NCBI RefSeq assembly: GCF_000384035.1
Contig: NZ_KB913024.1
Coordinates: forward strand, 1,131,655-1,195,654
Length of the DNA: 64,000 nucleotides
Reading direction: 5' to 3'
DNA from: Actinopolyspora mortivallis DSM 44261
GTDB lineage: Bacteria; Actinomycetota; Actinomycetes; Mycobacteriales; Pseudonocardiaceae
Part shown: positions 40,020-53,252 of the stretch, piece by piece
Numbering within the stretch: the first letter of the stretch is position 1
Layout: each line of letters begins with the position of its first letter
The notes under the pieces: model-generated
Database searches by the model: none
Told to the model about the DNA's origin: nothing
The model's input: the letters and a program-made list of their open reading frames with translations, nothing else
Translations under genes and position numbers: made by a program

Positions 40020-40376
40020 TTGACCGACGGGAATGCGATACGGGGCATGCGGCTCGGTTCCGGAACGATCAGCGGGGACGTGGAGCGCGGGGAGTCCGCC
40101 CCGCGCCAGCAGGTGGAGTACTGGTGTGACAACGGCCACCGGGTTCGTCCCGCGTTCGCCGTGGACGCCCACGTTCCGGACACCTGGGAGTGCACGCGCT
40201 GCGGTCTTCCGGCCGGGCGGGACCGGGACAATCCTCCCGCCCCGAAGCGCACCGAGCCCTACAAGAGCCACTTCGCCTACGTGAAGGAGCGGCGCAGCGA
40301 CGCCGACGGCATGGAGCTGCTGGACGAGGCGCTGCGCAAGCTGCGCGAGCGGCGGGGCCGTTCCGGCGAGCGGTAA
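40020..40376 (+). CDS. RNA polymerase-binding protein, RbpA family
   Basis: A 118-residue actinobacterial transcription factor that binds RNA polymerase and the principal sigma factor. The core shows a zinc-ribbon-like cysteine set (WCDNGHR and WECTRCG) and the C-terminal sigma-interacting region SHFAYVKERRSDADGMELLDE. The N-terminus DGNAIRGMRLGSG matches the family if translation starts at TTG 40020; no ATG or GTG fits, so this is an unusual TTG start with GGTGGG about nine bases upstream. It is the secG-linked family branch, distinct from the longer classic RbpA. Confidence 0.85.
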   Translation: MTDGNAIRGMRLGSGTISGDVERGESAPRQQVEYWCDNGHRVRPAFAVDAHVPDTWECTRCGLPAGRDRDNPPAPKRTEPYKSHFAYVKERRSDADGMELLDEALRKLRERRGRSGER

Positions 40377-40468: not shown

Positions 40469-41024
40469 TCAGGCTGGGGCTTGCTGCTCACGCAGTCTCT
40501 GGCGTGCTTCGCCCAACGCGAAGCCGAGCAGGTTCAACCCCGGCCATCGTTCCGGATTCCGTGCGCGGGAGTCGTCCGCGGTGAGGCCGATGCCCCAGAC
40601 CGTGTCGACCGGACTGGCCTCGACCAGTATCCGTTCTCCCGTGCCGAGCAGAAAACGGCACAGCTGATCGTGTTGTCCGAACTTCGCCACATTGCCGGCC
40701 GGCCACCACGGCAGAGAACCGCTCCCGTTCCCACACTCGCTGGTCGAATCCGGCTACCGTGCGCCCCAGCGCCCTGGCGCGGTGTGGATGTTCGGCCGCC
40801 AGGATGCGTTCCGCGGCCTCGTGGTCACCGAACAGTGTCGCCTTGCGCCACATCATGTAGTGCTCCGCGGTGGGGAAAAGGCGCTCGTGGGCGGTGAACG
40901 GAGCCGGCCACCACTGGCTCAGGCAGCCCCGGCCGGGGCTGCCGTCCCGTTGAGGGTGGTCTCCCCAGAAGAACACGAACTTCGTCCGCACGCCCTGTCG
41001 GAGACGTTCGACCAGTTCGGTCAC
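40469..41024 (-). pseudogene. NADAR/YbiA-family N-glycosidase, frameshifted
   Basis: Reading from GTG 41024 gives TELVERLRQGVRTKFVFFWGD, then the NADAR block LFPTAEHYMMWRKATLFGD and VWERERFSAVVAG. At about 40695-40704 the frame breaks; the rest of the domain (NVAKFGQHDQLCRFLLGTG, ASPVDTVWGIGLTADD, PGLNLLGFALGEARQRL) continues in another frame to the stop at 40469. Removing four bases restores one frame, and the site is a tandem CCGG/GGCC repeat, so a 4-bp slippage duplication is likely. NADAR enzymes cleave N-glycosidic bonds in riboflavin intermediates or ADP-ribosylated bases. Natural inactivation, phase variation or sequencing error are all possible. Confidence 0.82.
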
Positions 41025-41365
41025 ACTGCGGACAGATCTCCGGGTGTTCGTGACACCGAGGTCTCCGTTCTCGCCGTGTTCGGTACCGGACACGCGGGTG
41101 ATGTTACTTCCCGGACTGTTCCCCGCGGGGAGTGTCCCCGGCAGGGTCGGAGTTCGTTCCGGTGCGGGAGGAACCGTGTACCGACGGAGTTTCGCCGGTG
41201 TGCGCGATGCCGTGGCTCCTCTCGTGGTCCGGTGCCCGCAGGACCGGATCCCGGACCACGAGAAGGAAGGCGACCGTCCGGTGGCGTTCGGAGGTCGCCG
41301 CCGGAGTTCGTCGCACGGCCCGTGTTGTGGGCCGTTTCGAGGGGGTGGCGGGGACCGTCTTTCGG
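41025..41365. other. Non-coding stretch with a hairpin
   Basis: 341 bases between two broken minus-strand genes. An open frame continues upstream of the NADAR start to 41369, but its amino acid composition is unlike a folded protein and I see no family. A 13-base-arm hairpin sits at 41220-41263. Confidence 0.55.
41220..41263. terminator. Hairpin downstream of the DUF4352-like remnant
   Basis: Arms 41220-41232 and 41251-41263 pair over 13 bases with an 18-base loop. On the minus strand it lies about 100 bases past the stop of the remnant at 41366. No T-run. Confidence 0.5.
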
Positions 41366-41905
41366 TCACACCCTGCCCGTGAAGTAGACCGTCTGGGCGG
41401 CGAACGCGTTCGGCTGGACACTGACCTTCAGTTCGCCCGGCTCCTCGGAGATCTCGAAGACCATGGTGTAGGAGACCTCGTCTCCGGGCGGCAGTTGGGT
41501 GTTCGGGAGCTGGTCGCCGGCGCTGTAGTTCTGCTGGGCGACCTTTCCGGCGTGCTGTGCGGTGATCGTGACGGAGCCGACGTTGTACTCGTCGTCACCG
41601 TTGTTGACCACGTGGACGTCGAACTGGACGTAGCGCTTTCCCTCCTGTGGCTGGAGGAACTGGTTGTCGCTGGTGTAGGGAGTCGGTTCCGAGATCGATA
41701 TCGTCTCGCCACCCGGCCAGCTGTGGTTCTCCCCGAACGCGAGTTCGGTCGAGGATTCGGAGGAGCCGGAGTCGGGGTCGGAACCGGAGCCGGGGTCGGG
41801 GGCGGGCTGCTCGGGTGCCGAGGGGCTCCGCCGGAGGATCCGGCCTCGTTGATGGCGCTGACGAGTATCCCCTGGACCGCCACGGTGACCACGATCGCCA
41901 GTATT
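41366..41905 (-). pseudogene. DUF4352-like membrane/lipoprotein, truncated and frameshifted
   Basis: The C-terminal domain reads cleanly ([60 protein letters not shown], ending TVYFTGRV), the pattern of exported DUF4352-type beta-sandwich proteins. A membrane segment, [20 protein letters not shown], lies upstream but in a different frame; the shift falls near 41840, inside the Pro/Gly/Ser linker. Upstream of the membrane segment the sequence switches abruptly to kinase coding sequence on the other strand at about 41905, so the N-terminus is lost. Function unknown. Confidence 0.65.
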
Positions 41906-41907
41906 CC

Positions 41908-42724
41908 TCGATACTCACCGCCGCCCACCAGGCCCGGCTGGTGCATCGCGACCTCAAACCGGCCAACCTCATGCTGCAACCGGACGGCACCGTCAAAGTG
42001 CTCGACTTCGGACTGGCCGTGGCTCTCGACATGGCCGACATGTCCCGGTTGACCCGCACCGGCCAGCCCATCGGCACCCCGCCTACATGACCCCGGAACA
42101 GATCCAGGAAGCTACCAGCTCCGCCCACAGCGATCTCTACTCCCTGGGCTGTGTGCTCTACGAGATGCTCACCGGGCTACGGCTGTTCACCGGTTCGACC
42201 GCCTACGCCGTGATGCACAAACAGGTCTACGAGCGGCCGACGCCACTACGTGGACACCGTTCGGACATTCCGGCCGAGCTGGACGAGCTCGTCTCCGAAT
42301 CGGCCTGCGGCTGGAATGGGCCAAGGTGCTGTTCGACGGTGGCCAGTACCAACGAGCCGGTCCCGTGTACCACACGTTGGCCACCGACCTGGCACAGCGG
42401 GACGGTCTCGACACCGAACTCGTTCTCCACTGCCGGTTGCGCAACGCCACCTGCCACGCCCTCGGTGGTAACCCCGGGCACGCGCTGCGGATCATGAACG
42501 GTCTGTTGGCCGACGAACGACGGGTGTTCGGTGACGAGCACCCCCGCACGCTGGACCTGCGGCGTCAGATCGGGATGATCCAGTTCGGTGCGGGCAGAAC
42601 GGAGGAGGCCGAGACGACGCTGAGCGAGTTGCTCGACGATCTGCTCCGAACCCACGACCCGGAGCATCCCACCGTCGTCAAAGTGCGCGAACTGCTCGAC
42701 GTCCTGCCCACTGGCGGGCGATGA
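41908..42724 (+). pseudogene. Ser/Thr protein kinase-TPR gene, decayed
   Basis: Starts in mid-kinase: [19 protein letters not shown] is the catalytic loop and [13 protein letters not shown] the DFG segment. At about 42078 one base is missing within [10 protein letters not shown], shifting to the frame [21 protein letters not shown], which runs to SDIPAELDELV. The rest of the kinase lobe is deleted, and a third frame continues with TPR-like sequence (LEWAKVLFDGGQYQRAG, ALRIMNGLLADERRVFGDEH, AGRTEEAETTLSELL) to the stop at 42724. The N-lobe with the ATP site is absent. At least one truncation, one frameshift and one deletion make it non-functional. Confidence 0.8.
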
Positions 42725-42848: not shown

Positions 42849-44942
42849 GTGGCCCGACTCGGTATCGACAAGGACTTCCTCCACGAGTTCACCAAACTCG
42901 AAAAAACGGTTCGGGATCGAGTGACCCGGACACTGGAGAAGTTCGAGGACATCAGTCACGCCGGAGCGCATCTGGAGAAGATCGCCAACGCGCGCGATCC
43001 CCGGTTCCGTTCCATCCGGATCAGCGACTTCTGGCGGGGGATCGTGCTGGCACCGGACTCGGGGGACAACTACACCCTACTCACCGTACGTCCGCACGAC
43101 GACGCCTATGCCTGGGCGAGACGGCACCGGGCTTCGGTCAACGCCGCCACCGGACGCATCGAGCTCCGCGACGTCGCAGCGGTGGAGGACAGCATGCCCG
43201 CGTTGTCCCGGCTGGCCGAAACCGCCCCCAGCCGGCTGTTCGACCACGTCAAGGACTCCCAGCTGCGGCAGCTGGGAGTCGACGAGCAGACCCTGGAGTT
43301 CGCGCGGGTGCTGACGGACTCGACGCAGCTCGAGGCGGCCAAGTCGTTTTTGCCGTCCAACCAGTGGGACGTACTGTTCGGGCTGGCCGCTGGCTACACC
43401 CCCGAGCAGGTGTGGGCCGAACTGGCCGCCGAGGTGACCGAGGCGGGGTTCGACACCGAGGATCTGGACGCGGCCGTGGAGCGCAGTTCCGATCGAGTCG
43501 TCCTCGTCGACGGACCCGAGGAACTGATGGCGATATTCCGGCACCCGCTGGCGACGTGGCGGGTGTATCTCCATCCCAGGCAGCGTTTCGTGGTCGAGGC
43601 CTCCTACGGTGGCCCGGCCCGGGTCACCGGAGGCCCCGGCACCGGCAAGACGGTGGTGACGATGCACCGGGCCCACCGGTTGGCCACGAACGGGGAGGGA
43701 CCGGTGCTGATGACCACCTTCACCGCGACCCTGGCCGACTCCCTGCGCACCGGCGTCGAGCTGCTCGTCGAGGACCCCGGGGTGCGCGAACGCATCGACG
43801 TGCGTCACGTGGACCAGCTCGCCAACCGGATCTTCCGCGAACACCACGGGCCTCCCACGATCCTGTCCTCCGAGGAGGAACGACGACTGTGGGACTCGGT
43901 CATTGCGGAGCTGGAGGTGCCGTTCACGGCCTCCTTCCTGGGTGAGGAATGGCGTCAGGTCGTGCTCGCCCGGCGGATCGGCAGTGCCGAGGAGTATCTG
44001 AACGCCAAACGCGACGGGCGGGGGCGCGGCCTCGGTTCCCGCCAGAAGGCCCGGGTCTGGCAGGCGGTCTGGGAGTTCGAGAACACGCTGCGGCGACGCG
44101 GGGTGTGGACCCATGAGACCGTCTGCGTCGAGGCGACCCGGCTGCTCGAACAGCGCGCCGAGAAGCCGTACCGACACGTGGTGGTCGACGAGGCCCAGGA
44201 TCTCAGCCCGGTGCAGTGGCGGTTACTGCGCGCGGCCGTGCCCGAGCTGCCGAACGACGTCTTCCTGGCGGGGGACACGCACCAGCGCATCTACAACAAC
44301 CGGGTGAGCCTGCGCGAGGTCGGGATCCAGGTGGTCGGACGGTCGAGCCGGTTGACCGTCAACTACCGCACCACCGCCGAGATCCTCGCCTGGAGTCTCG
44401 GCCTGCTGCGTGGCGAACGTATCGACGACATGGACGAGGGGCTCGCCTCCATCGCGGGATGCCGTTCGGAAGTGCGGGGTCGACACCCCCGTGTCCTCGG
44501 CTTTCCGACCAGGAACGCCGAGACCGAGCATCTGGTGACCACGGTGCGCGAGTGGATGGATGCCGGAGTACAACCCGGTGAGATCGGGGTGGCGGTGCGG
44601 TCGAACCGACTCGTTGACACGGTCATGGCCGCACTCGCCGGGGCCGGAGTTCCCCACGAGAAACTGTTCGGTGCCACTGGCGGCGACGAGCAGGCCGTCG
44701 CCGTGGGCACCATGCACCGGATGAAGGGGTTGGAGTTCCGTTGCCTGGCCGTGGTCGGAGTGACCGAGTACCACGTTCCGCCGGCCAGCGCGATCACCCC
44801 AGAGGAGGAGGATCCCGCGGCGCATCGTCGGGACACCCAGCGCGAGCGCTGTCTGCTGTTCGTCGCCTGCACCCGTGCCCGGGAACAGCTCGTCGTGTCC
44901 TGGCACGGCTCCAGGAGCCCGTTTCTGCCCGTCGAGGGCTGA
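42849..44942 (+). CDS. UvrD/Rep-type superfamily 1 helicase with RelE-like N-terminal domain
   Basis: 697 residues from GTG 42849, which has AGGGAG six bases upstream. Residues 1-105 resemble the RelE/ParE toxin fold (FLHEFTKLEKTVRDRVTRTL, LEKIANARDPRFRSIRISDF, WRGIVLAP, RPHDDAYAWARRH). A linker precedes the SF1 helicase core: Walker A GGPGTGKT near 261, Walker B VVVDEAQDLSP near 445, GDTHQRIYNNR, LTVNYRTTAEI, TMHRMKGLEF near 620 and VACTRAREQLVVSW near 675. All ATPase motifs look intact. The DUF262 gene starts 65 bases later on the same strand. The pair is probably a defence module; the reaction is unknown. Confidence 0.88.
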   Translation: MARLGIDKDFLHEFTKLEKTVRDRVTRTLEKFEDISHAGAHLEKIANARDPRFRSIRISDFWRGIVLAPDSGDNYTLLTVRPHDDAYAWARRHRASVNAATGRIELRDVAAVEDSMPALSRLAETAPSRLFDHVKDSQLRQLGVDEQTLEFARVLTDSTQLEAAKSFLPSNQWDVLFGLAAGYTPEQVWAELAAEVTEAGFDTEDLDAAVERSSDRVVLVDGPEELMAIFRHPLATWRVYLHPRQRFVVEASYGGPARVTGGPGTGKTVVTMHRAHRLATNGEGPVLMTTFTATLADSLRTGVELLVEDPGVRERIDVRHVDQLANRIFREHHGPPTILSSEEERRLWDSVIAELEVPFTASFLGEEWRQVVLARRIGSAEEYLNAKRDGRGRGLGSRQKARVWQAVWEFENTLRRRGVWTHETVCVEATRLLEQRAEKPYRHVVVDEAQDLSPVQWRLLRAAVPELPNDVFLAGDTHQRIYNNRVSLREVGIQVVGRSSRLTVNYRTTAEILAWSLGLLRGERIDDMDEGLASIAGCRSEVRGRHPRVLGFPTRNAETEHLVTTVREWMDAGVQPGEIGVAVRSNRLVDTVMAALAGAGVPHEKLFGATGGDEQAVAVGTMHRMKGLEFRCLAVVGVTEYHVPPASAITPEEEDPAAHRRDTQRERCLLFVACTRAREQLVVSWHGSRSPFLPVEG

Positions 44943-45007
44943 CACCGGTCGTGGTCGGAGCCTTCCGGACTCGCGCGAGACAGTCATGACAAGAGGAAAG
45001 GGAGACC

Positions 45008-47287
45008 ATGCCCACGCTTTCCACCCTGCTGTACCAGATCGACTCCGGGTCGGTGCTGCTTCCCGAGTTCCAACGTGGTTACGTGTGGAACCGGGAGCAG
45101 GTGCGGGAGTTGATGCAGTCGCTGTACCGCGGACATCCGGTGGGTGGGCTGCTCATGTGGGAAACCGACGCCGAAGGGATCTCCGTCCGGGGAGAAACCG
45201 GGGGTAACCACGGTCCCCACCTGCTGTTGTTGGACGGCCAGCAGCGCATCACCTCACTCTACGGGGTGATACGTGGTCAGCCACCGGCCTTCTTCGAGGG
45301 AGACCAGAGCGCCTTCACCGGCCTGTACTTCAACGTCGCCGAGGAGAAGTTCGAGTTCTACGCGCCGTCCAGGATGGCCGAGGACTACCGCTGGGTGAAC
45401 GTGACCAGACTCTTCCGGGAGAACCTCGGGGAGTACATCACGAGCTTCCAACAGCACGACCCGGACAATCTCGGTACCTACGTGGAGCGGTTGAACAGGC
45501 TGCACAACCTGCTGGAGCGGGAGTTCTACGCGGAGAAGATCACCGGGGACGACAAGAACGTCGACACGGTCGTCGACATCTTCAACCGGGTCAACTCGGG
45601 CGGGACGAAACTGTCCAAGGGGGACCTCGCGCTGGCCAAGATCTGCGCACAGTGGAGCGAGGCACGCGGTGAGATGCGCCGGACGCTGCGGACGTGGCAC
45701 GAGGCCGGGTTCGACTTCACACTGGACTGGCTGTTGCGCAACGTCAACGCGGTGGCCACCGGGCGCGCCCTGTTCACCGCCTTGGACCATGTCTCGGCCG
45801 AGGAGTTCCGGGAGGCGTTGCACCGGTCCACCGGATACATAGGCCGGTTCCTCGACCTGGTCTCCGGCCGGCTCGGGCTGGACCACGACCGGGTGCTGAT
45901 GGCCCGCTACGCCTTCCCCGTGGTCTCCCGGCTGTTGGAACTCAACGGCGGCCGCTTCGACGACAGCTCGCACCAGGACAAGGTGCTGTACTGGTACATC
46001 CACGCGGCGTTGTGGGGAAGGTTCGCCGGCTCGACCGAATCCTTCCTCCAGCGGGACTACGAAACCGTCGAACGAGCCGGCATCGACGGACTGATCACCG
46101 CGCTGGAGCGGTGGCGTGGCGGCAACCTCGACGTGCACGCCCACGATTTCGAGGGGTCGACGAAGGGGTCGCGTTTCTACCCGCTGCTGTACATGCTCAC
46201 CAGGGTCAGACAGGCCCGGGACTTCGGCAGTGGGATACCGTTGCGCGCCGACTTGTTGGGCAGGAACTCCTCGCTGCAGGTTCACCACCTGTTCCCGAAG
46301 TCGCTGCTGTACCGGGCCGGCTACGAACGTTCGCAGGTCAACGCCATCGCCAACTTCTGTTTCCTGACCCAGGACACCAATCTGGTGGTGGGCAACAGGC
46401 CTCCGGAGGAGTACTTCGCCGAGGTGGAGGAGAAACATCCCGGGGTGCTGGCCTCGCAGTGGGTCCCCACCGACCCCGAGCTGTGGAAGATCGAGCGCTA
46501 TCCCGAGTTCCTGCAGGCACGGCGTGAACTGTTGGCCGAGGCGGCACAGTCTTTTCTCACCGAGCTGCGTACGGGAGTGACCTCCGCGGAGCGGGTGGAG
46601 CTGCAACCGCTGTCGGTGGCCGCCGACGACGCGCTGGACGCCCGGGCCGCCCAGGTCAGTGGGCTGATTTCCGAACTCGTCGGGATGGGGTGCGCGTACC
46701 CGGCCACCGACACCGAGATCGCCGACCCGCGTACGGGACGGCCGCTGGCCGTGGCCGAGGCGTTCTGGCCCGACGGGTTGCAGACCGGTCAGGGCAGCCC
46801 GGTGGTGCTCGAACTCGACACCGCCGAGGCCGACCTCGCCCGTCTGGAGGAACTCGGCTACGAGGTGTTCACCTCGGTGGATGCGTTTCGTGGTTACGTG
46901 CGCCGTCGTAACCAGGGACAGGAGGAAACCTCCACGGAGGACGTCGACGCCGGCGAACAGCGACCCCGTCCCGATCCCACGCGGGAGCCGTTGGTGGCCG
47001 AGTTCGAGCAGCGGATGCGTTCGTTGTACGAACGTGGGCGGAAGGAAGCGCACTACACCGCGACGTACTTCCTGAGTATGCTCGCCGAGCACGGCGGTTT
47101 GGACACCGCGCGCAGGCTGCTGGCCGGGGCGGCCGTCTCCGACGGATTCGCCGCGCTCTGGGAACGCGGCAGGCTCGATCTCACCGTCGAGGCCCTGGTC
47201 ATCCAGCCCAGGTTCGCCGAGCTGTTCTCCGCGGAGGAGCTTCGCACCGCCGAGCGTCGGCTCGAACAGTTCGGTTACGCCGCCTGA
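45008..47287 (+). CDS. DUF262/DUF1524 protein, GmrSD-like
   Basis: 759 residues. The N-terminal DUF262 domain carries LLLLDGQQRITSLYG (DGQQR near 75) plus LPEFQRGYVW and FNRVNSGGTKLSKGDL, the ParB-like nucleotide-hydrolysing signature. The DUF1524 HNH-type nuclease follows with VHHLFPKSLL near 424 and NAIANFCFLTQDTN near 446-459. A separate C-terminal helical domain (YERGRKEAHYTATYFLSML, LWERGRLDLTVEALV) has no function I can name. Fused GmrS/GmrD proteins are type IV restriction enzymes that cut modified phage DNA. ATG 45008 has AAGGGAG upstream. The DGQQR and HNH residues are intact. Confidence 0.9.
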   Translation: MPTLSTLLYQIDSGSVLLPEFQRGYVWNREQVRELMQSLYRGHPVGGLLMWETDAEGISVRGETGGNHGPHLLLLDGQQRITSLYGVIRGQPPAFFEGDQSAFTGLYFNVAEEKFEFYAPSRMAEDYRWVNVTRLFRENLGEYITSFQQHDPDNLGTYVERLNRLHNLLEREFYAEKITGDDKNVDTVVDIFNRVNSGGTKLSKGDLALAKICAQWSEARGEMRRTLRTWHEAGFDFTLDWLLRNVNAVATGRALFTALDHVSAEEFREALHRSTGYIGRFLDLVSGRLGLDHDRVLMARYAFPVVSRLLELNGGRFDDSSHQDKVLYWYIHAALWGRFAGSTESFLQRDYETVERAGIDGLITALERWRGGNLDVHAHDFEGSTKGSRFYPLLYMLTRVRQARDFGSGIPLRADLLGRNSSLQVHHLFPKSLLYRAGYERSQVNAIANFCFLTQDTNLVVGNRPPEEYFAEVEEKHPGVLASQWVPTDPELWKIERYPEFLQARRELLAEAAQSFLTELRTGVTSAERVELQPLSVAADDALDARAAQVSGLISELVGMGCAYPATDTEIADPRTGRPLAVAEAFWPDGLQTGQGSPVVLELDTAEADLARLEELGYEVFTSVDAFRGYVRRRNQGQEETSTEDVDAGEQRPRPDPTREPLVAEFEQRMRSLYERGRKEAHYTATYFLSMLAEHGGLDTARRLLAGAAVSDGFAALWERGRLDLTVEALVIQPRFAELFSAEELRTAERRLEQFGYAA

Positions 47288-47454
47288 GACCCGCCGCCGG
47301 ACCGGGCGAGCTGCGTCATTCCTCCGGGGGAAGGGGTGTGTCGCGGTCGCGGTTTCGGGCCCGTTCCGGAGGACCCTGTGGTGGTGTACGGCCGGGCGCC
47401 GTCCGGGGTGTTCCGAGACGACGGCGCCGAGTTCCTTGTTCGAGGGGAGTGCGG

Positions 47455-48156
47455 ATGTGCGCCACGTGCGGGTGCGGTGAGGGCGAAACGCGGAGCGGGA
47501 CCGTGCACGGGCTCGTCGACGAGGACGGGCGCGCCCCGGCGGAGGCCAACCGTGACTGGCTGACGGAGCGGGGCGTGCTGGCACTGAACCTGGTGGGTTT
47601 TCCGGGGGCGGGGCGGACCGCCCTGGTGGAACGCACGCTGGCGGAGAACGGGCCACGGGCCCCGGTGGCGGTACTGGTGGGTAACCAGGCGCCCGAGCGG
47701 GACGCGGAACGGCTGACCGCCGCCGGGGGAACGGTGGCGCGGATCGACACGGAGGAGGGCGCTCCTCCGGACGCGGAGGCGTTGGGCCGGAGCCTGCGCG
47801 CCCTGGATCCGGCGCGGGGCTCGGTGGTGTTGGTGGACAGCGTGTGCGATCCGGGTCGTCCGGCCCCTTTCGACCTGGGCGAGCATGCCCGGGTCGTGCT
47901 GACCGCGGCCACCGAGGGTGACGACGGGCCGGTGAAGTATCCGCACCTGTTCCACGGCGCGGACCTGGTGCTGATGAACAAGATGGACCTGCTGCCGTAC
48001 CTGTCCTTCGACCCGGCGGTGTTCACCGAGCGGCTGCGCGGGGTGAACCCGGAGGCGGAGATCCTTCCGATCTCGGTGACGGAGAGCCTGGGACTGGCGG
48101 TCTGGTACGACTGGCTGTCCGAGCGGGTGCACACGCCCGTGGGAGAAGGCGTGTGA
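47455..48156 (+). CDS. Orphan HypB-like GTPase with altered P-loop
   Basis: 233 residues, from ATG 47455 with GGGGAG upstream. The N-terminal MCATCGCGEGE is the HypB metal-binding start. The G1 P-loop reads GFPGAGRTAL, so the usual Lys of GxxGxGKT is Arg. G4 NKMDLLPYLSFD and the C-terminal VNPEAEILPISVTESLGLAVW match HypB, which inserts nickel into hydrogenase or urease. No hydrogenase or hypA gene is visible in this window. It could be a metallochaperone for another enzyme, or have reduced GTPase activity. The next gene, an oxidoreductase, starts 111 bases later. Confidence 0.8.
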   Translation: MCATCGCGEGETRSGTVHGLVDEDGRAPAEANRDWLTERGVLALNLVGFPGAGRTALVERTLAENGPRAPVAVLVGNQAPERDAERLTAAGGTVARIDTEEGAPPDAEALGRSLRALDPARGSVVLVDSVCDPGRPAPFDLGEHARVVLTAATEGDDGPVKYPHLFHGADLVLMNKMDLLPYLSFDPAVFTERLRGVNPEAEILPISVTESLGLAVWYDWLSERVHTPVGEGV

Positions 48157-48267
48157 CCCGAGGATCCGGGAGGTGAGGATGTGCGCGGCCGGGCCCCGTG
48201 GCGGGCCCGGTCTTTTCGTGGGAGTTTCGGGGAGCGGGCAGGAAGCGTCGTTCCGGGAGGCGGAGTC

Positions 48268-49164
48268 ATGCGCGCCGTTCAGTTCTCCGAGTACGGCTCC
48301 TCGGACGTGTTGCGGCTGGTGGAGGCGGGCGCGCCGGAACCCGGCCGGAGGCAGGTCCGGGTCGCCGTCCGGGTGGCCGGGGTCAACCCGCTGGACTGGA
48401 AGCTGCGCGGCGGGGTGATGCCCGAGCTCGCGTTGCCGCGCCGTCCCGGGCTGGAGCTGGCGGGCGTGGTGGACGCCGCCGGGGAGGGGGCCCCGTTCGG
48501 TGTGGGGGAGGAGGTGTTCGGCTGGGCCGACACCGGGTCGTACGCCGAGTACGCGTTGGCCTCGCTGGTGGCGCGTAAACCTCCGGAGCTGTCCTGGCGG
48601 GACGCGGCGGCCCTGCCGGTGGCGGGGGCGACGGCCGCGCGGGTGCTGCGCCAGTTGGAGCTCTCCCCCGGAGAAGTGCTGTTGCTGCACGGGGCCAGTG
48701 GAGCCGTGGGGCGGATCGCGGTGCAACTCGCGGTCGCCATGGGGGCCACGGTGGTGGGTACGGCCGCGCCGGAACGGTTCGAGGATCTCCGCTCGCTGGG
48801 GGCCGTGCCCGTGACGTACGGGGAAGGGCTGGTGGAACGGGTGCGGGAGGTGACCTCCCGGGTGGACGCGGTGTTCGACGCCGCGGGCAAAGGGGTCCTG
48901 CCGGACTCGGTGGAGCTGCGTGGGGGCACCGACCGGATTGTCACCATCGCGGACACGCGGGCCTCCGCGCTGGGGGTGGTGTTTTCCAGCGGTGGTTCGG
49001 CGGAACGCGGTACCGGGGTGCTCGACGAGCTCGCCGGGCGCGTCGTGGCGGGCGAGCTCAGTATCGCCCACGCGCGGTCCTACCCGTTGAGTGAGGCGGC
49101 CCGGGCGCAGGATGACAGCGAGACCGGGCACAGCGGTGGGAAGATCACGCTCGACATCGGGTGA
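48268..49164 (+). CDS. Zinc-independent medium-chain dehydrogenase (quinone oxidoreductase-like)
   Basis: A 298-residue NADP-dependent MDR oxidoreductase. ATG 48268 has GGAGG seven bases upstream. The N-terminal GroES-like domain includes MRAVQFSEYGSSDVL and GVNPLDWKLRGG; the Rossmann part carries LLLHGASGAVGRIAVQLAVAMG with the A-x-x-G-x-x-G type nucleotide motif. Zinc ligands are absent, as in quinone oxidoreductases. Likely substrates are quinones or enones; the sequence does not specify. It is the last intact gene before the duplicated ESX-related modules. Confidence 0.88.
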   Translation: MRAVQFSEYGSSDVLRLVEAGAPEPGRRQVRVAVRVAGVNPLDWKLRGGVMPELALPRRPGLELAGVVDAAGEGAPFGVGEEVFGWADTGSYAEYALASLVARKPPELSWRDAAALPVAGATAARVLRQLELSPGEVLLLHGASGAVGRIAVQLAVAMGATVVGTAAPERFEDLRSLGAVPVTYGEGLVERVREVTSRVDAVFDAAGKGVLPDSVELRGGTDRIVTIADTRASALGVVFSSGGSAERGTGVLDELAGRVVAGELSIAHARSYPLSEAARAQDDSETGHSGGKITLDIG

Positions 49165-49235
49165 CCGGAAACCTCCCGGCGACCGAGGGCGTGTCGGGGG
49201 CGTCCCGAGGTGCCCGCTCAGGCCCGGAGGAGTTG

Positions 49236-49288
49236 TAGGGGCGGGTGCTGAGGCGTTGGTGGGTGGAGAGGTGGTCGAACTCGGTCGT
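49236..49288 (-). pseudogene. Remnant of the small protein intact at 50639-50944
   Basis: Minus-strand codons read TEFDHLS then HQRLSTRP, i.e. the two ends of the 101-residue protein at 50639-50944 joined with about 230 bases deleted. The start ATG is changed to ACG (49286-49288). It marks the head of the first, decayed copy of the regulator/ESX module. Confidence 0.7.
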
Positions 49289-49297
49289 GAGTGACTG

Positions 49298-49493
49298 TGG
49301 CGCGAGTTCAACCACGAACAGCTGGTTGTTCCCGGCCTGCTGCAAACCGGAGAGTATGCCGCAGCGTTGACGGCCGCCAGCCGCAGCGTCGCGGAGGCAG
49401 ACCGGGACACGGGACTCCAAGGATCCGGCGGGGCCGGTGGTGCGTGTGGACACACGCGAGTGGTCGGCGTTCCTTCGGAGGTTACGCGGCTGA
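49298..49493 (+). pseudogene. Fused remnants of a DUF5753 regulator and a DUF397 protein
   Basis: From 49298 one frame reads WREFNHEQLVVPGLLQTGEY and AAALTAASRSVAEAD, the start of a DUF5753 domain. Near 49407 a second frame takes over: DSKDPAGPVVRVDTREWSAF and LRRLRG before the stop at 49491-49493, which is the C-terminal half of a DUF397 protein. The helix-turn-helix region, most of DUF5753 and the DUF397 start are missing. Both families exist intact at 51096-52173. One large deletion joining the two genes explains the arrangement. Confidence 0.75.
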
Positions 49494-49597
49494 GAGGGGC
49501 GGTCGCAGGGTGGTTTCGTCGGTTTGCCGGACGGGGTGGTGTCGGGCTCGTTAGGGTGCGGCGGACGAGGTGCACACGCGTGTGTGGGAGGCATGTG

Positions 49598-50021
49598 ATG
49601 ACGACGGTGGGTGGCCAGGATTCCGGGTTTTCCGAGGCGAGCGCGGTCTTGGGATCCATCCGGGAGGAGAACGCCTGGATCCGGCAGCAGATCGAGGGGG
49701 GCGGGTTGAGCATGGGAACCCGGCGCCGCCGACCACGCGGCCGCTGTCTACGAACGCGAAGCCAAAGAAGCTGAGAAGTTGTCTAGGTCAGCTGAAGGTT
49801 TACAACAAGTAACGGGGTTGGGAGATTATCCGTCGGGTCGGCAGTTGGCGGCCAAGTTCGGGAGTAAGGCCGGTAACGGTTCCACGGGGGCGGCGGATCT
49901 GCTGCAACAGTTCGCTGACGAGTTGAAGCGGAAGGCGGAGTTGTTCCGCGAGGCCAAGAAGAATTACCAGGCCACCGATGAGCAGATCAGCGGTGATCTG
50001 GGCAGGGGGATTCAGTGGTGA
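49598..50021 (+). pseudogene. ESX-associated helical protein, first copy, frameshifted
   Basis: ATG 49598, six bases after GGGAGG, opens TTVGGQDSGFSEASAVLGSI and continues to QQIEGGGLSM. One extra G in the following GGG run (near 49713) shifts the frame; the remainder, DHAAAVYEREAKEAEKLSRS, then LQQVTGLGDYPSGRQL and FREAKKNYQATDEQISGDLG, continues in the other frame and ends at 50021. The last third is identical at DNA level to the intact copy at 52279-52704. An internal restart could make only the C-terminal ~80 residues. Confidence 0.8.
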
Positions 50022-50164
50022 GTCGGTGGACGAGTTCGGTGGTGGCCGTGCTGGCCGGTGCGGTGTTGGTCGGTGTCACGGCGTGTTCGCCGGGTGGGGG
50101 TGCCGAGGGGTCGTCGGAGACTACAGGCCCGTCTTCCTCGGAGGAGGTTCTGGCGAGTGTGGAT
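49824..50164 (+). repeat. Direct repeat unit A (identical to 52507-52847)
   Basis: About 341 bases match unit B without a difference that I can see by eye, at a constant offset of 2683 bases. The unit covers the end of the ESX-associated gene and the first ~49 codons of the DUF3558 gene. Flanking sequence is clearly diverged, which points to recent gene conversion or recombination. Confidence 0.92.
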
Positions 50165-50560
50165 ATTTGCAATTTGCTTTCGGAAAAAGAAATGGAGTCC
50201 TTTGGCTTGGAGTTTCCGGGGGAATCCATAGATCAGTTGCCTTGGACATCTGAATGTGACTATTCCGGCGATCCGGTTGGGGTGAGATTCGTGAAGAATA
50301 CACGCCAGACGGTAGCTTCGTCGGAGCGGAAGGATGTCTGGGCGGAGTTCGAGCGCATCGAGGTCAACGGTCGTTCCGGGGCGCGGGCGATCACCAAGGG
50401 AGCGACGCAGGCGCGGACTTGTAACGTGATGTTCGATGCCGGGCAGGGCATGATCCAGGTGCGTGTCCAGGAAGTTGCTCTTCCAGATGATGTCGACGAG
50501 TGTGCCGAGGCCCTGAAGATCGCCGAGACGGTCGAACCGAAGGTTCCGGAGCCGGTGTAG
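50015..50560 (+). CDS. DUF3558 family lipoprotein, first copy
   Basis: 181 residues. The signal peptide ends in a VTAC lipobox, so the protein is an exported lipoprotein. A short Ser/Gly/Glu-rich linker precedes the DUF3558 domain (VDICNLLSEKEMESFGL, TSECDYSG, ARTCNVMFD) with four Cys that probably form disulfides. The first 49 residues equal the copy at 52698; residues ~50-93 differ strongly and their DNA is visibly richer in A and T than anything nearby, then similarity resumes at NTRQTVASSERKDVWAEFER. Overlapping GTG starts at 50015 and 50018 are coupled to the broken upstream gene. Function unknown. Confidence 0.85.
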   Translation: MVSRWTSSVVAVLAGAVLVGVTACSPGGGAEGSSETTGPSSSEEVLASVDICNLLSEKEMESFGLEFPGESIDQLPWTSECDYSGDPVGVRFVKNTRQTVASSERKDVWAEFERIEVNGRSGARAITKGATQARTCNVMFDAGQGMIQVRVQEVALPDDVDECAEALKIAETVEPKVPEPV

Positions 50561-50580
50561 GGGTGTTGGGATCACGGGGT

Positions 50581-50608
50581 CGCCCGGCGTGCGGGTACAC
50601 GCCGGGCG
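50581..50608. terminator. Hairpin after the first DUF3558 gene
   Basis: Perfect 11-base arms 50581-50591 and 50598-50608 with a six-base loop, followed by a T/G-rich stretch. It lies between convergent genes (50560 and 50639) and may serve both. Confidence 0.75.
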
Positions 50609-50638
50609 GTTCTGTGTGTGGGTTGGATGTTTGGGGGA

Positions 50639-50944
50639 TCAGGCCCAGAGAAGGTGCAGGGGGCGGGTGGGGGTGCTGAGGCGTTGGTGGGCGGTGGCGG
50701 CGTCGCGGAAGCCGAGGTGGATGCCGCCGCCGGTGCCGAGCACGTCGGCCCGGTCGGGGTGGGCCAGGCCCCAGTAGCACAGTACCGCCTGCTGGCACTC
50801 GTCGATCTCCTCGCAGAGGGCGAACACCCGTGGGGCGCTCTCGGTGACCATCTCCTGGAGGGCGGCCAGGAACTCCGCGCGGCGGCCCGGCGAAGACGGC
50901 GGTGCGGGACGCTGGGGGCCGGAGAGGTGGTCGAACTCGGTCAT
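50639..50944 (-). CDS. Conserved small protein divergent from the XRE regulator
   Basis: 101 residues with no domain I can name. It starts MTEFDHLSGPQRP, has a helical centre (AEFLAALQEMVTESAPRVF, ALCEEIDECQQAVLCYWG) and ends in an Arg/His/Leu-rich tail. AAGGAGT precedes the ATG at a good distance. It is transcribed away from the regulator at 51096 across an AT-rich intergenic region, and a decayed copy lies in the equivalent place of the first module. The position suggests a partner or target of the XRE/DUF397 pair. Confidence 0.75.
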   Translation of the reverse strand: MTEFDHLSGPQRPAPPSSPGRRAEFLAALQEMVTESAPRVFALCEEIDECQQAVLCYWGLAHPDRADVLGTGGGIHLGFRDAATAHQRLSTPTRPLHLLWA

Positions 50945-50976
50945 GAGTGACTCCTTCCAGAATGCGTACTCGGTAC

Positions 50977-51008
50977 ACTTATGTATTTACTTCTTATAAA
51001 TAAGTTTG
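50977..51008. promoter_or_regulatory. AT-rich divergent promoter/operator region
   Basis: A 30-base A/T block in otherwise GC-rich DNA, containing ACTTAT...ATAAGT and TATTTA...TAAATA inverted repeats. It lies 33 bases from the start of the small minus-strand gene and about 90 from the XRE regulator start, so it is the natural place for overlapping promoters and autoregulation. Confidence 0.55.
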
Positions 51009-51095
51009 GGTAGTGCACGATCAGGTGAAACCGGTGGAGTGTGGAGGCCGTTACGGCGTAGGTCTCTTCCCAGAGCGACAACGGAGGGGAGTGCG

Positions 51096-51974
51096 ATGAC
51101 ACCGAGATCGGATGCGGGTTGGCTGCGCCGGAGGATCGGGCGGGAACTGCGAACTCTGCGTGAGTTGGCTCCGGAGAGGACGGGACGCAAGATCAGTACG
51201 TCCGAGGCGGCTGCCGAGCTCGGGTGCACGCAACCGAAGATCACCAGCATGGAGCAGGGCAAGTACCGACTGCGGTGGCGTGACGTGCGGGACCTGCTGG
51301 ATTTGTACGGAGCGACGGCCAGTGAGAAGACACGTCTGATCAACTGGGCCAAGCGTTCCAACGAGCCTATCTGGTGGGCTCCGTTCTCCGAAGTCGTGGA
51401 GGACTGGTTCGCCGATCTGATCGGTGGTGAGGGCGAAGCCCAACGCGAGATCACGTACGAGCACGGTTTGGTGCCGGGCCTGTTGCAGAGCAGGCAGTAC
51501 GTGGAGGCTCTGACCCGGGCCAGCCCGATGGTGGACGAGCAGCAACACGATCTGGTGGTCGGTCTGCGGCTGGAGCGTCAGAACCGGCTTCTCGACGAGG
51601 AGGACCCGCTGGTGCTGGAGGCACTCGTCGAGGAGTCGGTGCTGTGGCGACCGGTCGGCTCCGAGGAGGTCATGCGTGAGCAACTGGACCACCTCGTGAA
51701 GATGGGACGACAGAGCAATGTGGATGTAAGAGTGGTGCCGACCTCCGCCGGGGCCCACGCCGCCATCGACGGCTCGTTCATCCTGCTGGAGTTCGCCGAG
51801 TTCCTGCCCGCCGTGTATCTGCAACAACATCCGGTCATGGGCGCTCGGTACTCGGACGAACGGGAAGTGGGGGAAGCCTACACGCAAGTTGCGAATCAGG
51901 TTCGCGAAGTCGCGTACGGTACGGAGGAGTCACTGGCACTCATCGAGTCCGTACGCGCGAGTTTCTCCGGTTGA
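51096..51974 (+). CDS. XRE-family regulator with DUF5753 domain
   Basis: 292 residues from ATG 51096, preceded by GGAGGGGAG. Residues ~10-70 form the helix-turn-helix (LRRRIGRELRTLRELA, TSEAAAELGCTQPKITSMEQ). DUF5753 follows from ~90 (REITYEHGLVPGLLQSRQYV, LEALVEESVLWRP, DVRVVPTSAGAHAAIDGSF). Such proteins pair with DUF397 partners (BldB/WhiJ-like systems) to control development and secondary metabolism in Streptomyces. The DUF397 gene starts eight bases after the stop. Targets unknown; the AT-rich region upstream is a likely own operator. Confidence 0.92.
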   Translation: MTPRSDAGWLRRRIGRELRTLRELAPERTGRKISTSEAAAELGCTQPKITSMEQGKYRLRWRDVRDLLDLYGATASEKTRLINWAKRSNEPIWWAPFSEVVEDWFADLIGGEGEAQREITYEHGLVPGLLQSRQYVEALTRASPMVDEQQHDLVVGLRLERQNRLLDEEDPLVLEALVEESVLWRPVGSEEVMREQLDHLVKMGRQSNVDVRVVPTSAGAHAAIDGSFILLEFAEFLPAVYLQQHPVMGARYSDEREVGEAYTQVANQVREVAYGTEESLALIESVRASFSG

Positions 51975-51981
51975 GGTGACG

Positions 51982-52173
51982 ATGATGAACAGCACCACCC
52001 TGTCCGCCGTGGACTGGCACAGGAGCAGCTACAGCAACCACCAGGGTGCCTGTGTTGAGGTGGCTTTCGCCGCCGGCGGGGTGTGGGTGCGGGATTCCAA
52101 GGATCCGGCCGGGCCGGTGGTGTGTGTGGGCACACGCGAGTGGTCGGCGTTCCTCCGACGACTGTGCGAGTGA
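51982..52173 (+). CDS. DUF397 small protein
   Basis: 63 residues, the typical size. LSAVDWHRSSYSNHQGACVEVA is the family N-terminal pattern (cut here for length: WxxSSYSN and CVEVA), followed by VRDSKDPAGPVV and EWSAFLRRL. Two adjacent ATGs (51982, 51985) are possible; the GAGGT site fits the second better. It is co-transcribed with the DUF5753 regulator, the standard genomic pair. Confidence 0.9.
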   Translation: MMNSTTLSAVDWHRSSYSNHQGACVEVAFAAGGVWVRDSKDPAGPVVCVGTREWSAFLRRLCE

Positions 52174-52278
52174 GGTGTTGGTCACGGGGGTGTTTGTGGG
52201 GTTTTGGCACATGGGGGTGGGGTGGGTTGGCTAGGGTGCTGGTGGGTGTGGATGTCGGTGTGCGTGTGGGAGGGGACT

Positions 52279-52704
52279 GTGACGGAGGTTCCGGAGGAGT
52301 TGGATGCTGGTTTCGCCGAGGCCGGTGAAGCGTTGGGGGCTATCCAGCAGGAGAATGTCTGGATTCGGCGTCAGATCGCCGCGGGTGGGTTGAGTATGGA
52401 GCCCAGTGCTGCGGATCAGGCGGCGGCGGTGTACGAACGCGAGGCTGAGGAAGCGAAAAAGCTCGCTGATGCTGCCGAGGGATTGCAGCAGGTTCCCGGT
52501 TTGGGTGATTATCCGTCGGGTCGGCAGTTGGCGGCCAAGTTCGGGAGTAAGGCCGGTAACGGTTCCACGGGGGCGGCGGATCTGCTGCAACAGTTCGCTG
52601 ACGAGTTGAAGCGGAAGGCGGAGTTGTTCCGCGAGGCCAAGAAGAATTACCAGGCCACCGATGAGCAGATCAGCGGTGATCTGGGCAGGGGGATTCAGTG
52701 GTGA
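52279..52704 (+). CDS. ESX-associated helical protein, intact copy
   Basis: 141 residues from GTG 52279 behind GGGAGGGG. Mostly alpha-helical and Glu/Ala/Lys-rich: VPEELDAGFAEAGEALGAIQ, VYEREAEEAKKLADAAEGL, FADELKRKAELFREAKKNYQ, ending GDLGRGIQW. Small size, helical character and neighbours (DUF3558, PPE-like, EspG) suggest a type VII secretion substrate of the EspC/WXG type, but no WxG turn is present. Stop overlaps the DUF3558 start. The first copy at 49598 is frameshifted. Confidence 0.75.
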   Translation: MTEVPEELDAGFAEAGEALGAIQQENVWIRRQIAAGGLSMEPSAADQAAAVYEREAEEAKKLADAAEGLQQVPGLGDYPSGRQLAAKFGSKAGNGSTGAADLLQQFADELKRKAELFREAKKNYQATDEQISGDLGRGIQW

Positions 52705-52847
52705 GTCGGTGGACGAGTTCGGTGGTGGCCGTGCTGGCCGGTGCGGTGTTGGTCGGTGTCACGGCGTGTTCGCCGGGTGGGGGTGCCGAGGGGTCGTCGG
52801 AGACTACAGGCCCGTCTTCCTCGGAGGAGGTTCTGGCGAGTGTGGAT
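52507..52847 (+). repeat. Direct repeat unit B (identical to 49824-50164)
   Basis: Second unit of the ~341-base identical repeat, spanning the same gene junction. The offset of 2683 bases contains the regulator, DUF397 gene and small minus-strand gene, so recombination between the units would delete them. Confidence 0.92.
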
Positions 52848-53243
52848 CCGTGTGAGGTGCTGTCGGAGTCCGAGCTGGAGTCTTTCGGGTTGAGGGGGCC
52901 GGGGGAGCCTCGAAGTGAGTTGCCGTGGAAGCCGGGTTGTTACTACGAAGGTTCGCCCATTAATGCGCGATTGGAGAAGAACACACGTCAGACGGTGGCT
53001 TCGTCGGAGCGGAAGGATGTCTGGGCAGAGTTCGAGCGGGTGGAGGTCAATGGTCGTCCGGGGGCTCGGGCGATTACCAAGGGAGCCACGCAGGCGCGGA
53101 CTTGTAACGTGATGTTCGATGCCGGGCGGGGGACGATACTTGTTCGTGCCATGGAGTCTAGCCTGCCCGATGACCTTGACGAGTGTGCCAAGGCGTTGGA
53201 GATCGCGGAGACGGTGGAGCCGAAGGTTCCGGAACCTGCCTGA
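52698..53243 (+). CDS. DUF3558 family lipoprotein, second copy
   Basis: 181 residues with the same signal peptide and VTAC lipobox as the copy at 50015. The domain begins DPCEVLSESELESFGL, close to the family consensus, and contains four Cys (SVDPCE, KPGCYYEG, ARTCNVMFD, DECAKAL). This version keeps normal high GC through the middle, unlike the first copy. GTG 52698 and 52701 both fit AGGGGG at 52687-52692. The PPE-like gene starts nine bases after the stop. Confidence 0.87.
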   Translation: MVSRWTSSVVAVLAGAVLVGVTACSPGGGAEGSSETTGPSSSEEVLASVDPCEVLSESELESFGLRGPGEPRSELPWKPGCYYEGSPINARLEKNTRQTVASSERKDVWAEFERVEVNGRPGARAITKGATQARTCNVMFDAGRGTILVRAMESSLPDDLDECAKALEIAETVEPKVPEPA

Positions 53244-53252
53244 GGGGGCGTT

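Follow-up and report, generated by a model that had tools for sequence, protein, structure and literature searches.

A recurring ArmD-GmrSD gene pair of YprA-helicase defence operons, probably an orphan in Actinopolyspora mortivallis

Does a pair of intact genes that resembles a defence system stand alone, or is it a piece of something larger? This question is raised by a 64,000-nucleotide stretch of the Actinopolyspora mortivallis DSM 44261 genome (contig NZ_KB913024.1, positions 1,131,655 to 1,195,654; here called the window), in which a gene for a UvrD-type helicase is followed, after 65 bases, by a gene for a GmrSD-like DUF262 protein (Table 1). An earlier note, made from the letters of the window, had placed both genes in this stretch and separated by this gap; place and gap were confirmed, and both reading frames are intact.

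Table 1. Features of the locus, with positions in the window
Feature	Positions	Strand	Basis and remarks
Left flank of the putative hotspot, small gene after the gap-pgk-tpiA-secG cluster (gene names presumed from the sequences)	40020..40376	+	homology to the empty-site congener up to 40377
Fragment (ORF 40469-40690) of a 207-aa gene that congeners carry at the island's left end	40485..41020	-	blastn, gene map
Fragment of a ~240-aa gene near the island's left end in congeners	41364..41903	-	blastn, gene map
Relic of Ser/Thr kinase-TPR gene	41899..42709	+	5' end cut, three frames; tblastn, blastn
ArmD-like helicase gene	42849..44942	+	697 aa, GTG start, intact ORF
RelE/ParE-like N-terminal region of the helicase (residues 1-108)	42849..43172	+	weak TIGR02385 match and predicted secondary structure
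Walker A GGPGTGKT (K267) of the helicase	43629..43652	+	equivalent of K266 of E. coli ArmD
GmrSD/BrxU-like DUF262 gene	45008..47287	+	759 aa, intact ORF
DGQQR NTP-binding motif, GmrSD residues 76-80	45233..45247	+	alignment of relatives
HH (residues 426-427), HNH-type motif of GmrSD	46283..46288	+	alignment; H427 in 45/57
Island gene right of the pair	47503..48156	+	56% homologue towards the island's right end in G117, G134
Right flank of the putative hotspot (presumably oxidoreductase-like)	48268..49164	+	neighbour of the left flank in G072 (L270); homology starts again at 48189

Pfam placed the first protein among the UvrD-type helicases (UvrD-helicase, E 6.1e-21; UvrD_C, E 1.7e-16), and its ATPase motifs are intact (Walker A GGPGTGKT with K267; DEAQD with D447), as the earlier note had read them. 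An E. coli plasmid protein, drawn from a plasmid search with the window helicase (54 records), served as yardstick; its gene follows that of a 2113-aa DEAD/DEAH helicase of ArmC size, and its Walker residues (K266, D454) are numbered as in NCTC 12900 ArmD. The two proteins aligned over 717 columns at 37% identity (E 5e-133), with the N-termini aligned to each other, and the Walker A stretch G261-T268 was invariant in 42 of 42 aligned rows. The earlier note could put no name to the system containing this helicase. Because of the full-length homology and the correspondence of K267/D447 to K266/D454, the helicase itself can be named: judged from the alignments, it is a full-length homologue of ArmD, and the system around it is not ARMADA Type II.

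According to the available part of the preprint by Bell et al. (bioRxiv, September 2025, PMC12458937), ArmD is the RelE-UvrD helicase of ARMADA Type II, the substitution K266A abolished ARMADA immunity, D454N caused a partial loss, and ArmD requires its three partners. The window protein shares with it the full-length homology, a putatively RelE-like N-terminus joined to a GajB/UvrD-like helicase, and the Walker lysine (K267 versus K266). Unlike ARMADA Type II, the window holds no ArmA-, ArmB- or ArmC-type genes, the partner is a GmrSD protein, and relatives of the pair sit in DISARM-like operons with a kinase.

The N-terminus of the helicase had been called RelE/ParE-like. The predicted secondary structure of residues 3-97 agrees with this, running strand, two helices, short helix, three strands, helix and strand, which we take to be the RelE/ParE order. 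The sequence matches were weak: TIGR02385 reached E 0.0058 with the window piece (17.1 bits, below its cut-off of 27.9) and matched 1 of 20 family members, while PF24732 (ParE_like) matched 3 of the 20 with a best E of 0.075. A PDB sequence search with this region returned nothing below E 0.5, and profile comparison with one annotated RelE/ParE gene did not reach significance. No RelE/ParE chain appeared among the structure matches listed for the ArmD model (Foldseek, VIA), all of them matches to the helicase core (model residues 214-697); because core matches fill them, these lists barely test the N-terminus. Three residues of the region, R57, R63 and H83, were invariant in 20 aligned rows. 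A RelE-like domain has also been reported for another helicase, CnuH, in the accessible part of PMC11090510.

For the second protein, GmrSD_N was the sole Pfam family matched (E 5.6e-30), and this match together with the intact DGQQR motif bears out the GmrSD-like assignment made earlier. The PADLOC model HEC-05 also matched (E 6.4e-45). The sole solved relative found with the family profile at E ≤ 0.01 was 7p9k (E 1.1e-19), which we take to be BrxU; its alignment in the HNH-type part was below significance. A DUF1524/HNH part had been proposed as well; its motif is present (HH and two Asn, with H427 and N445 both kept), the C-terminal GmrSD model of Pfam gave no match at E ≤ 1, and the protein has on this basis a candidate DUF1524 part. 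The protein is composed of a DUF262 part, a middle region and a C-terminal extension. The extension, already noted earlier, is present as sequence; in the gene sets searched, its profile picked up 101 GmrSD entries plus a single 64-aa ORF. DUF262, DGQQR and the HNH-type motif are shared with the type IV enzymes GmrSD, BrxU and SspE; in contrast to these, the window family has additional middle and C-terminal regions, a helicase in its operon, and members that have lost the nuclease histidine.

The earlier note had suggested asking whether the two genes co-occur beyond this species, and they do (loci and genomes are cited by our L and G numbers). Among 150 genomes drawn from the same family, 22 had a GmrSD match at E ≤ 1e-20. 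Eleven of these matches, the own genome included, were unbroken and had at least 50% identity (G017, with pieces only, was left out); ArmD lay directly upstream in 8 of the 11 and was convergent in one (G037); the other two (G122, G075) did not have it there. A class-wide draw of 394 genomes gave 15 with a match at E ≤ 1e-60. With the own genome and a distant (31%) match set aside, ArmD was directly upstream in 10 of 13 (L138, L141-149; not L139, L140, L150). Finally, of 444 GmrSD relatives the best 80 were inspected, and 48 of them had ArmD immediately before GmrSD in the same orientation, at gaps of -4 to 146 bases (median 44.5), a recurrence of the ordered pair that goes beyond chance; the profile used was built mostly from paired rows, and the scan therefore favours pairs. 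Since the remaining 32 of the 80 loci had no ArmD directly upstream, GmrSD is not bound to ArmD; 21 of them had neither ArmD nor Drm genes near, and 5 followed Drm genes in the absence of ArmD.

Neighbourhoods were examined in 76 loci, selected for a match to one of the two window proteins; a basic in-house gene caller was used for annotation, together with reference proteins that had been named through Pfam and PADLOC. Operons of the order DrmA-DrmB-DrmC-(methylase)-kinase-ArmD-GmrSD were found, for example, in L059, L062-065, L138, L141 and L144-146. Four loci (L151-154) had DrmA-DrmB-DrmC-methylase-kinase-ArmD operons that end without GmrSD, and two (L139, L140) combined DISARM genes, kinase and GmrSD without ArmD. 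ArmD was also found without GmrSD beside McrBC or ArmC. The helicase directly followed McrC in 14 of the 76 loci (L066-068, L073-075, L077, L080, L084, L094, L160-163), 9 of which also had a PglX-type methylase, and it lay beside a giant, ArmC-like YprA helicase in 12 (L085, L086, L089, L090, L092, L167, L170-175), with L150 as a partial case. Associations of McrBC with DISARM-like genes and methylases are reported in the part of PMC11090510 that is accessible.

Upstream sequence of at least 6.5 kb was available for 44 of the 48 pairs, which we searched over 6.5-10 kb on the pair's own strand (E ≤ 1e-6, identity floors of 30-35%). Drm genes were present in 17, PglX with or without SNF2 and YprA pieces in 9, kinase and/or methylase only in 6, and none of these defence genes in 12. 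The defence setting suspected earlier is thus seen in 32 of the 44. A 299-aa C-terminal piece, truncated where the locus stops, identified the YprA gene of the ARMADA-like loci through its MZB and DruE matches. Two of the 12 bare pairs (L191, L242) had SNF2 and PglX homologues on the opposite strand, and a third (L229, in G486) had DrmA 27 kb upstream.

The DrmA of this clade was also searched for in seven genomes. The known carriers G364 and G415 matched, as controls. Among the five genomes with reduced neighbourhoods, G486 had its DrmA 27 kb away, G531 a 37% paralogue only, G220 and G431 a weak short match only (E 1.2e-5 and 1e-4), and G338 no clade DrmA in its genome.

Two plasmids carry GmrSD near systems of this kind, which places such associations beyond Actinomycetota as well. 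A Nostoc plasmid has the order DrmA-DUF1998-DrmC-UvrD helicase-PD-(D/E)XK-GmrSD, and on a Paracoccus plasmid two DEAD/DEAH helicase genes and one for an N6 methylase come after GmrSD. The Nostoc helicase was not counted as ArmD; it matched the window helicase in the helicase core only, with the N-terminus unmatched.

On a quick ArmD tree of 69 rows, the context labels (DISARM, ARMADA-like, kinase only, alone) changed 11 times, and alone versus the rest 9 times; these labels were assigned manually on roughly 10 kb of context and are in part coarse (DrmA lies farther away in L229, L178 and L180, a piece of a kinase lies 7 kb upstream in L211, and L232 includes a methylase). For the kinase-only L178 and L180 (G097, G117), DrmA lies 10-11 kb above the kinase. 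We therefore dropped "stand-alone", as judged from 10 kb, as a full picture, both for the distant DrmA genes of L229, L178 and L180 and for the opposite-strand genes of L191 and L242. Pairing with ArmD changed five times on the GmrSD tree; both trees have long branches. Distances between ArmD proteins and between their GmrSD partners were correlated (r 0.76, 42 pairs, 0 of 2000 permutations as high), of which shared host ancestry alone would give some part.

The separate occurrence of the two genes bears on one reading of the pair, an addiction module in which the RelE-like domain is a toxin held in check by the partner, so that the tail would outlive the core. The RelE-like predicted order of the N-terminus, its weak RelE/YoeB matches and the invariance of R57, R63 and H83 would fit a toxin. 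However, ArmD is found without GmrSD and GmrSD without ArmD, no antitoxin-like partner is common to the contexts seen, and the RelE assignment is itself weak. We consider this explanation very improbable.

To see what is conserved, we aligned 57 GmrSD proteins: the window protein, 41 of the 48 paired ones that passed a length filter, and a hand-picked 15 of the 32 others. DGQQR was invariant in 57 of 57, the window protein included. H427, which by analogy with other HNH enzymes we take to be the general base of the nuclease, was kept in 45 and replaced in 12 (7 of 42 paired, 5 of 15 unpaired), and N445 was also replaced in all seven paired proteins without H427. The loss of H427 amounted to three changes, all forced by starred branches, on a quick GmrSD tree that came with a warning that two long rows of the H427-loss set meet. 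Because DGQQR is invariant and H427 is lost in 12 of 57 proteins, we infer that, within the pair, GmrSD would always serve in NTP switching and only optionally in cutting.

This pattern, together with the neighbourhoods, has to be weighed against a self-sufficient pair like Gabija, in which DNA ends or replication intermediates would be sensed by the UvrD-like helicase, which in turn would license the nuclease of GmrSD. As in Gabija, a UvrD-like helicase stands beside a nuclease-type protein; GajB models of PADLOC match the window helicase (best E 7.6e-29), the HNH motif of the window GmrSD is intact, and pairs with no other such genes nearby on their own strand occur on several branches. Unlike Gabija, there is no OLD/TOPRIM GajA (the partner matches GmrSD_N only), and the window helicase has an extra N-terminal region. 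Other defence genes, moreover, adjoin the pair in 32 of the 44 cases with enough upstream sequence, the nuclease histidine is absent from 7 of 42 paired GmrSD proteins, and in ARMADA II, as far as the available text of PMC12458937 goes, ArmD requires three partners. With further defence genes beside the pair in 32 of 44 relatives, we keep the two-gene, Gabija-like reading as a rival only and regard it as unlikely.

What, then, has become of the further genes in A. mortivallis? A tblastn search of the window with YprA-, SNF2- and PglX-type references (E ≤ 1e-3) found only the kinase, ArmD and GmrSD, and tblastn detected no DrmC (PLD nuclease) within the window. DrmA was absent from the whole genome at E ≤ 0.001 and present in 5 of 5 congeners (four at 63-64% over nearly the whole query; G134 at 37-39%). 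DrmB (DUF1998/MZB) was found neither in the window nor, in a search at E ≤ 1 run without a positive control, in the genome.

The relic directly upstream of the pair, in line with the pseudogene surroundings claimed earlier, stems from the kinase gene that precedes ArmD in relatives. By tblastn, its homology to congeners begins at 41899 and ends at 42709 with most references, at 42718 at the latest. At the DNA level (blastn), the match falls into two parts, 41907-42298 and a second one that starts at 42299; compared with A. xinjiangensis, about 520 bases have been lost at this join. A deletion junction lies at 41903 to 41907, where homology to the ~240-aa gene stops and homology to the kinase starts. 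By position arithmetic, the stretch spanned by this junction in congeners measures ~34.6 kb (G117) or ~31.3 kb (G038) and includes DrmA-DrmB-DrmC. The pair forms the last part of an uninterrupted DISARM-like operon, DrmA-DrmB-DrmC-(methylase)-kinase-ArmD-GmrSD, in G038 and G072; in G117 and G097, further genes separate the kinase from DrmA, which is ~10 and ~11 kb upstream.

G072 also provides the empty site: there the left and right flank genes are neighbours, with ~160 bases between the matched ends, and the complete cassette lies at another place in the genome. On these genome comparisons, the site between the flank genes is a hotspot, and the window pair is what survives intact, at the 3' end, of a larger DISARM-like cassette that has lost its core and in which the kinase is broken. 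The earlier description as simply a two-gene system does not hold here, given the broken kinase and the absence of DrmA and DrmB. The likeness to DISARM lies in the pair's place at the end of contiguous DrmA-DrmB-DrmC-(methylase)-kinase operons in two congeners and in other genera, the difference in the loss of DrmA and DrmB from the own genome. To our knowledge, a kinase-ArmD-GmrSD tail is not part of DISARM.

A remnant of this kind may be dead, the pair being intact merely because the deletion is recent, and inactive and decaying without DrmABC and the kinase. Such a relic would agree with the missing core and the broken kinase, and with the size of the orphan genome, the smallest of the six compared (4.2 versus 4.9-5.3 Mb). 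Branch dN/dS values (NG86) in the window lineage were equal or slightly raised, at 0.23 versus 0.17-0.23 for ArmD and 0.15 versus 0.09-0.17 for GmrSD. The broken kinase piece, at 0.17-0.28 versus 0.09-0.12 in its sisters, also remains low; the breakage is therefore young, and the intactness of the pair proves little. For the same reason we did not use dN/dS as proof of function of the orphan, constraint and recency being inseparable. Against a dead relic stand the 12 of 44 intact pairs without Drm, kinase, methylase or ARMADA-type genes on their own strand in 6.5-10 kb upstream, and the genome-wide searches in which G338 had no clade DrmA and G220 a weak short match only (E 1.2e-5). We regard a dead relic as a distinct, if lesser, possibility.

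Taking these observations together, we propose that ArmD and GmrSD are probably a conserved, exchangeable two-gene tail of YprA-helicase defences, namely DISARM-like DrmA-DrmB-DrmC-(methylase)-kinase operons and ARMADA-like YprA-SNF2-methylase operons, and that the window holds an intact orphan of a DISARM-like cassette. The ancestor of the locus would have looked like the cassette of the congeners, and a deletion would have brought the middle of the kinase gene up against a gene close to the left end of the island, with loss of DrmA and DrmB. BrxU and SspE are reported to behave as NTP- and DNA-sensing switches (PMC10952713, available part), and the DUF262 part of GmrSD may likewise bind NTP through DGQQR and act as a DNA-sensing switch. 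Because the Walker A motif of ArmD is needed for ARMADA immunity, ArmD is proposed to load on phage DNA intermediates and translocate along them using ATP. Cleavage would fall to the HNH part of GmrSD where this is intact, as here; otherwise a further nuclease encoded in the operon, DrmC for instance, would take it over. The RelE-like region may act as an RNase, or may serve for docking alone. A bolder version, which we find doubtful, would make ArmD-GmrSD a portable and autonomous defence unit of two genes, which joins different YprA-helicase systems and persists when they are lost; the conserved role of GmrSD would be to switch the helicase, driven by NTP and in response to DNA, and the nuclease of GmrSD would be optional.

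The arrangement resembles BREX with BrxU, where a GmrSD-type enzyme is attached to a larger methylase-based defence; it differs in that no BREX core was seen here and the tail includes ArmD too. We found no description of an ArmD-GmrSD or DISARM-GmrSD tail in the open-licence papers searched; among those consulted, ArmD is described in PMC12458937 alone. The available part of PMC10952713 lists DUF262 and UvrD in separate systems, and that of PMC11980606 does not mention UvrD or a helicase. The portable ArmD-GmrSD tail is apparently a pattern wider than this genome and undescribed.

This pattern brings an ARMADA helicase and a BrxU-like enzyme together in a single tail that recurs in DISARM-like and ARMADA-like operons, accompanied by a kinase in the DISARM-like ones, and this tail links systems that are now handled as separate. 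The constraint pattern, with the NTP motif kept throughout the alignment and the nuclease histidine lost on at least three branches, offers a direct test of the role of DUF262. In Actinopolyspora, the hotspot provides a natural series of empty site, large island with cassette and orphaned tail, which suits a test of the tail alone.

The HNH-type nuclease motif of the DUF262 protein GmrSD was degenerate in several relatives that, like the window protein, directly follow the RelE-UvrD-type helicase ArmD on the same strand (loci L223, L226, L227, L229, L231, L232 and L242), and also in L239, L241, L249, L252 and L257. DGQQR was retained in all GmrSD rows with the degenerate motif, and the tree requires three or more changes in the HNH-type motif.

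At the island hotspot, a small gene and a lipoprotein-like gene are present twice in the window, with near-identical starts. In the same hotspot of A. xinjiangensis (L275), a 139-aa protein related to a window segment is encoded four times in a row. On the left side of this hotspot, congeners (L271, L274-L275, L279) have a second methylase-SNF2-PglX-like set, and none was seen in the window. GC skew was 0.18-0.26 in one segment, compared with -0.03 to 0.11 across the remaining window.

Coordinates of the features described (window positions unless stated otherwise)
Feature	Position
HNH-type motif	GmrSD residues 424-450
Small gene and lipoprotein-like gene	49779-50560 and 52204-53243
Segment related to the 139-aa tandem copies	52279-52704
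Segment of raised GC skew	47000-54000
109-aa ORF and ECF-sigma-like gene	L139:7033-8579

Loci of other phyla also carry GmrSD relatives (about 50%): a DISARM-like one on a Nostoc plasmid (L282) and a helicase-methylase one on a Paracoccus plasmid (L281). One DISARM-kinase-GmrSD locus (L139) has, where ArmD would stand, an ORF of 109 aa together with an ECF-sigma-like gene (DUF6596). An ArmD-type helicase directly adjoins and follows McrC in 14 loci (L066-L068, L073-L075, L077, L080, L084, L094, L160-L163), 9 of which also contain a PglX/type IIG-like methylase. The McrC-adjoining loci are one more home for ArmD.
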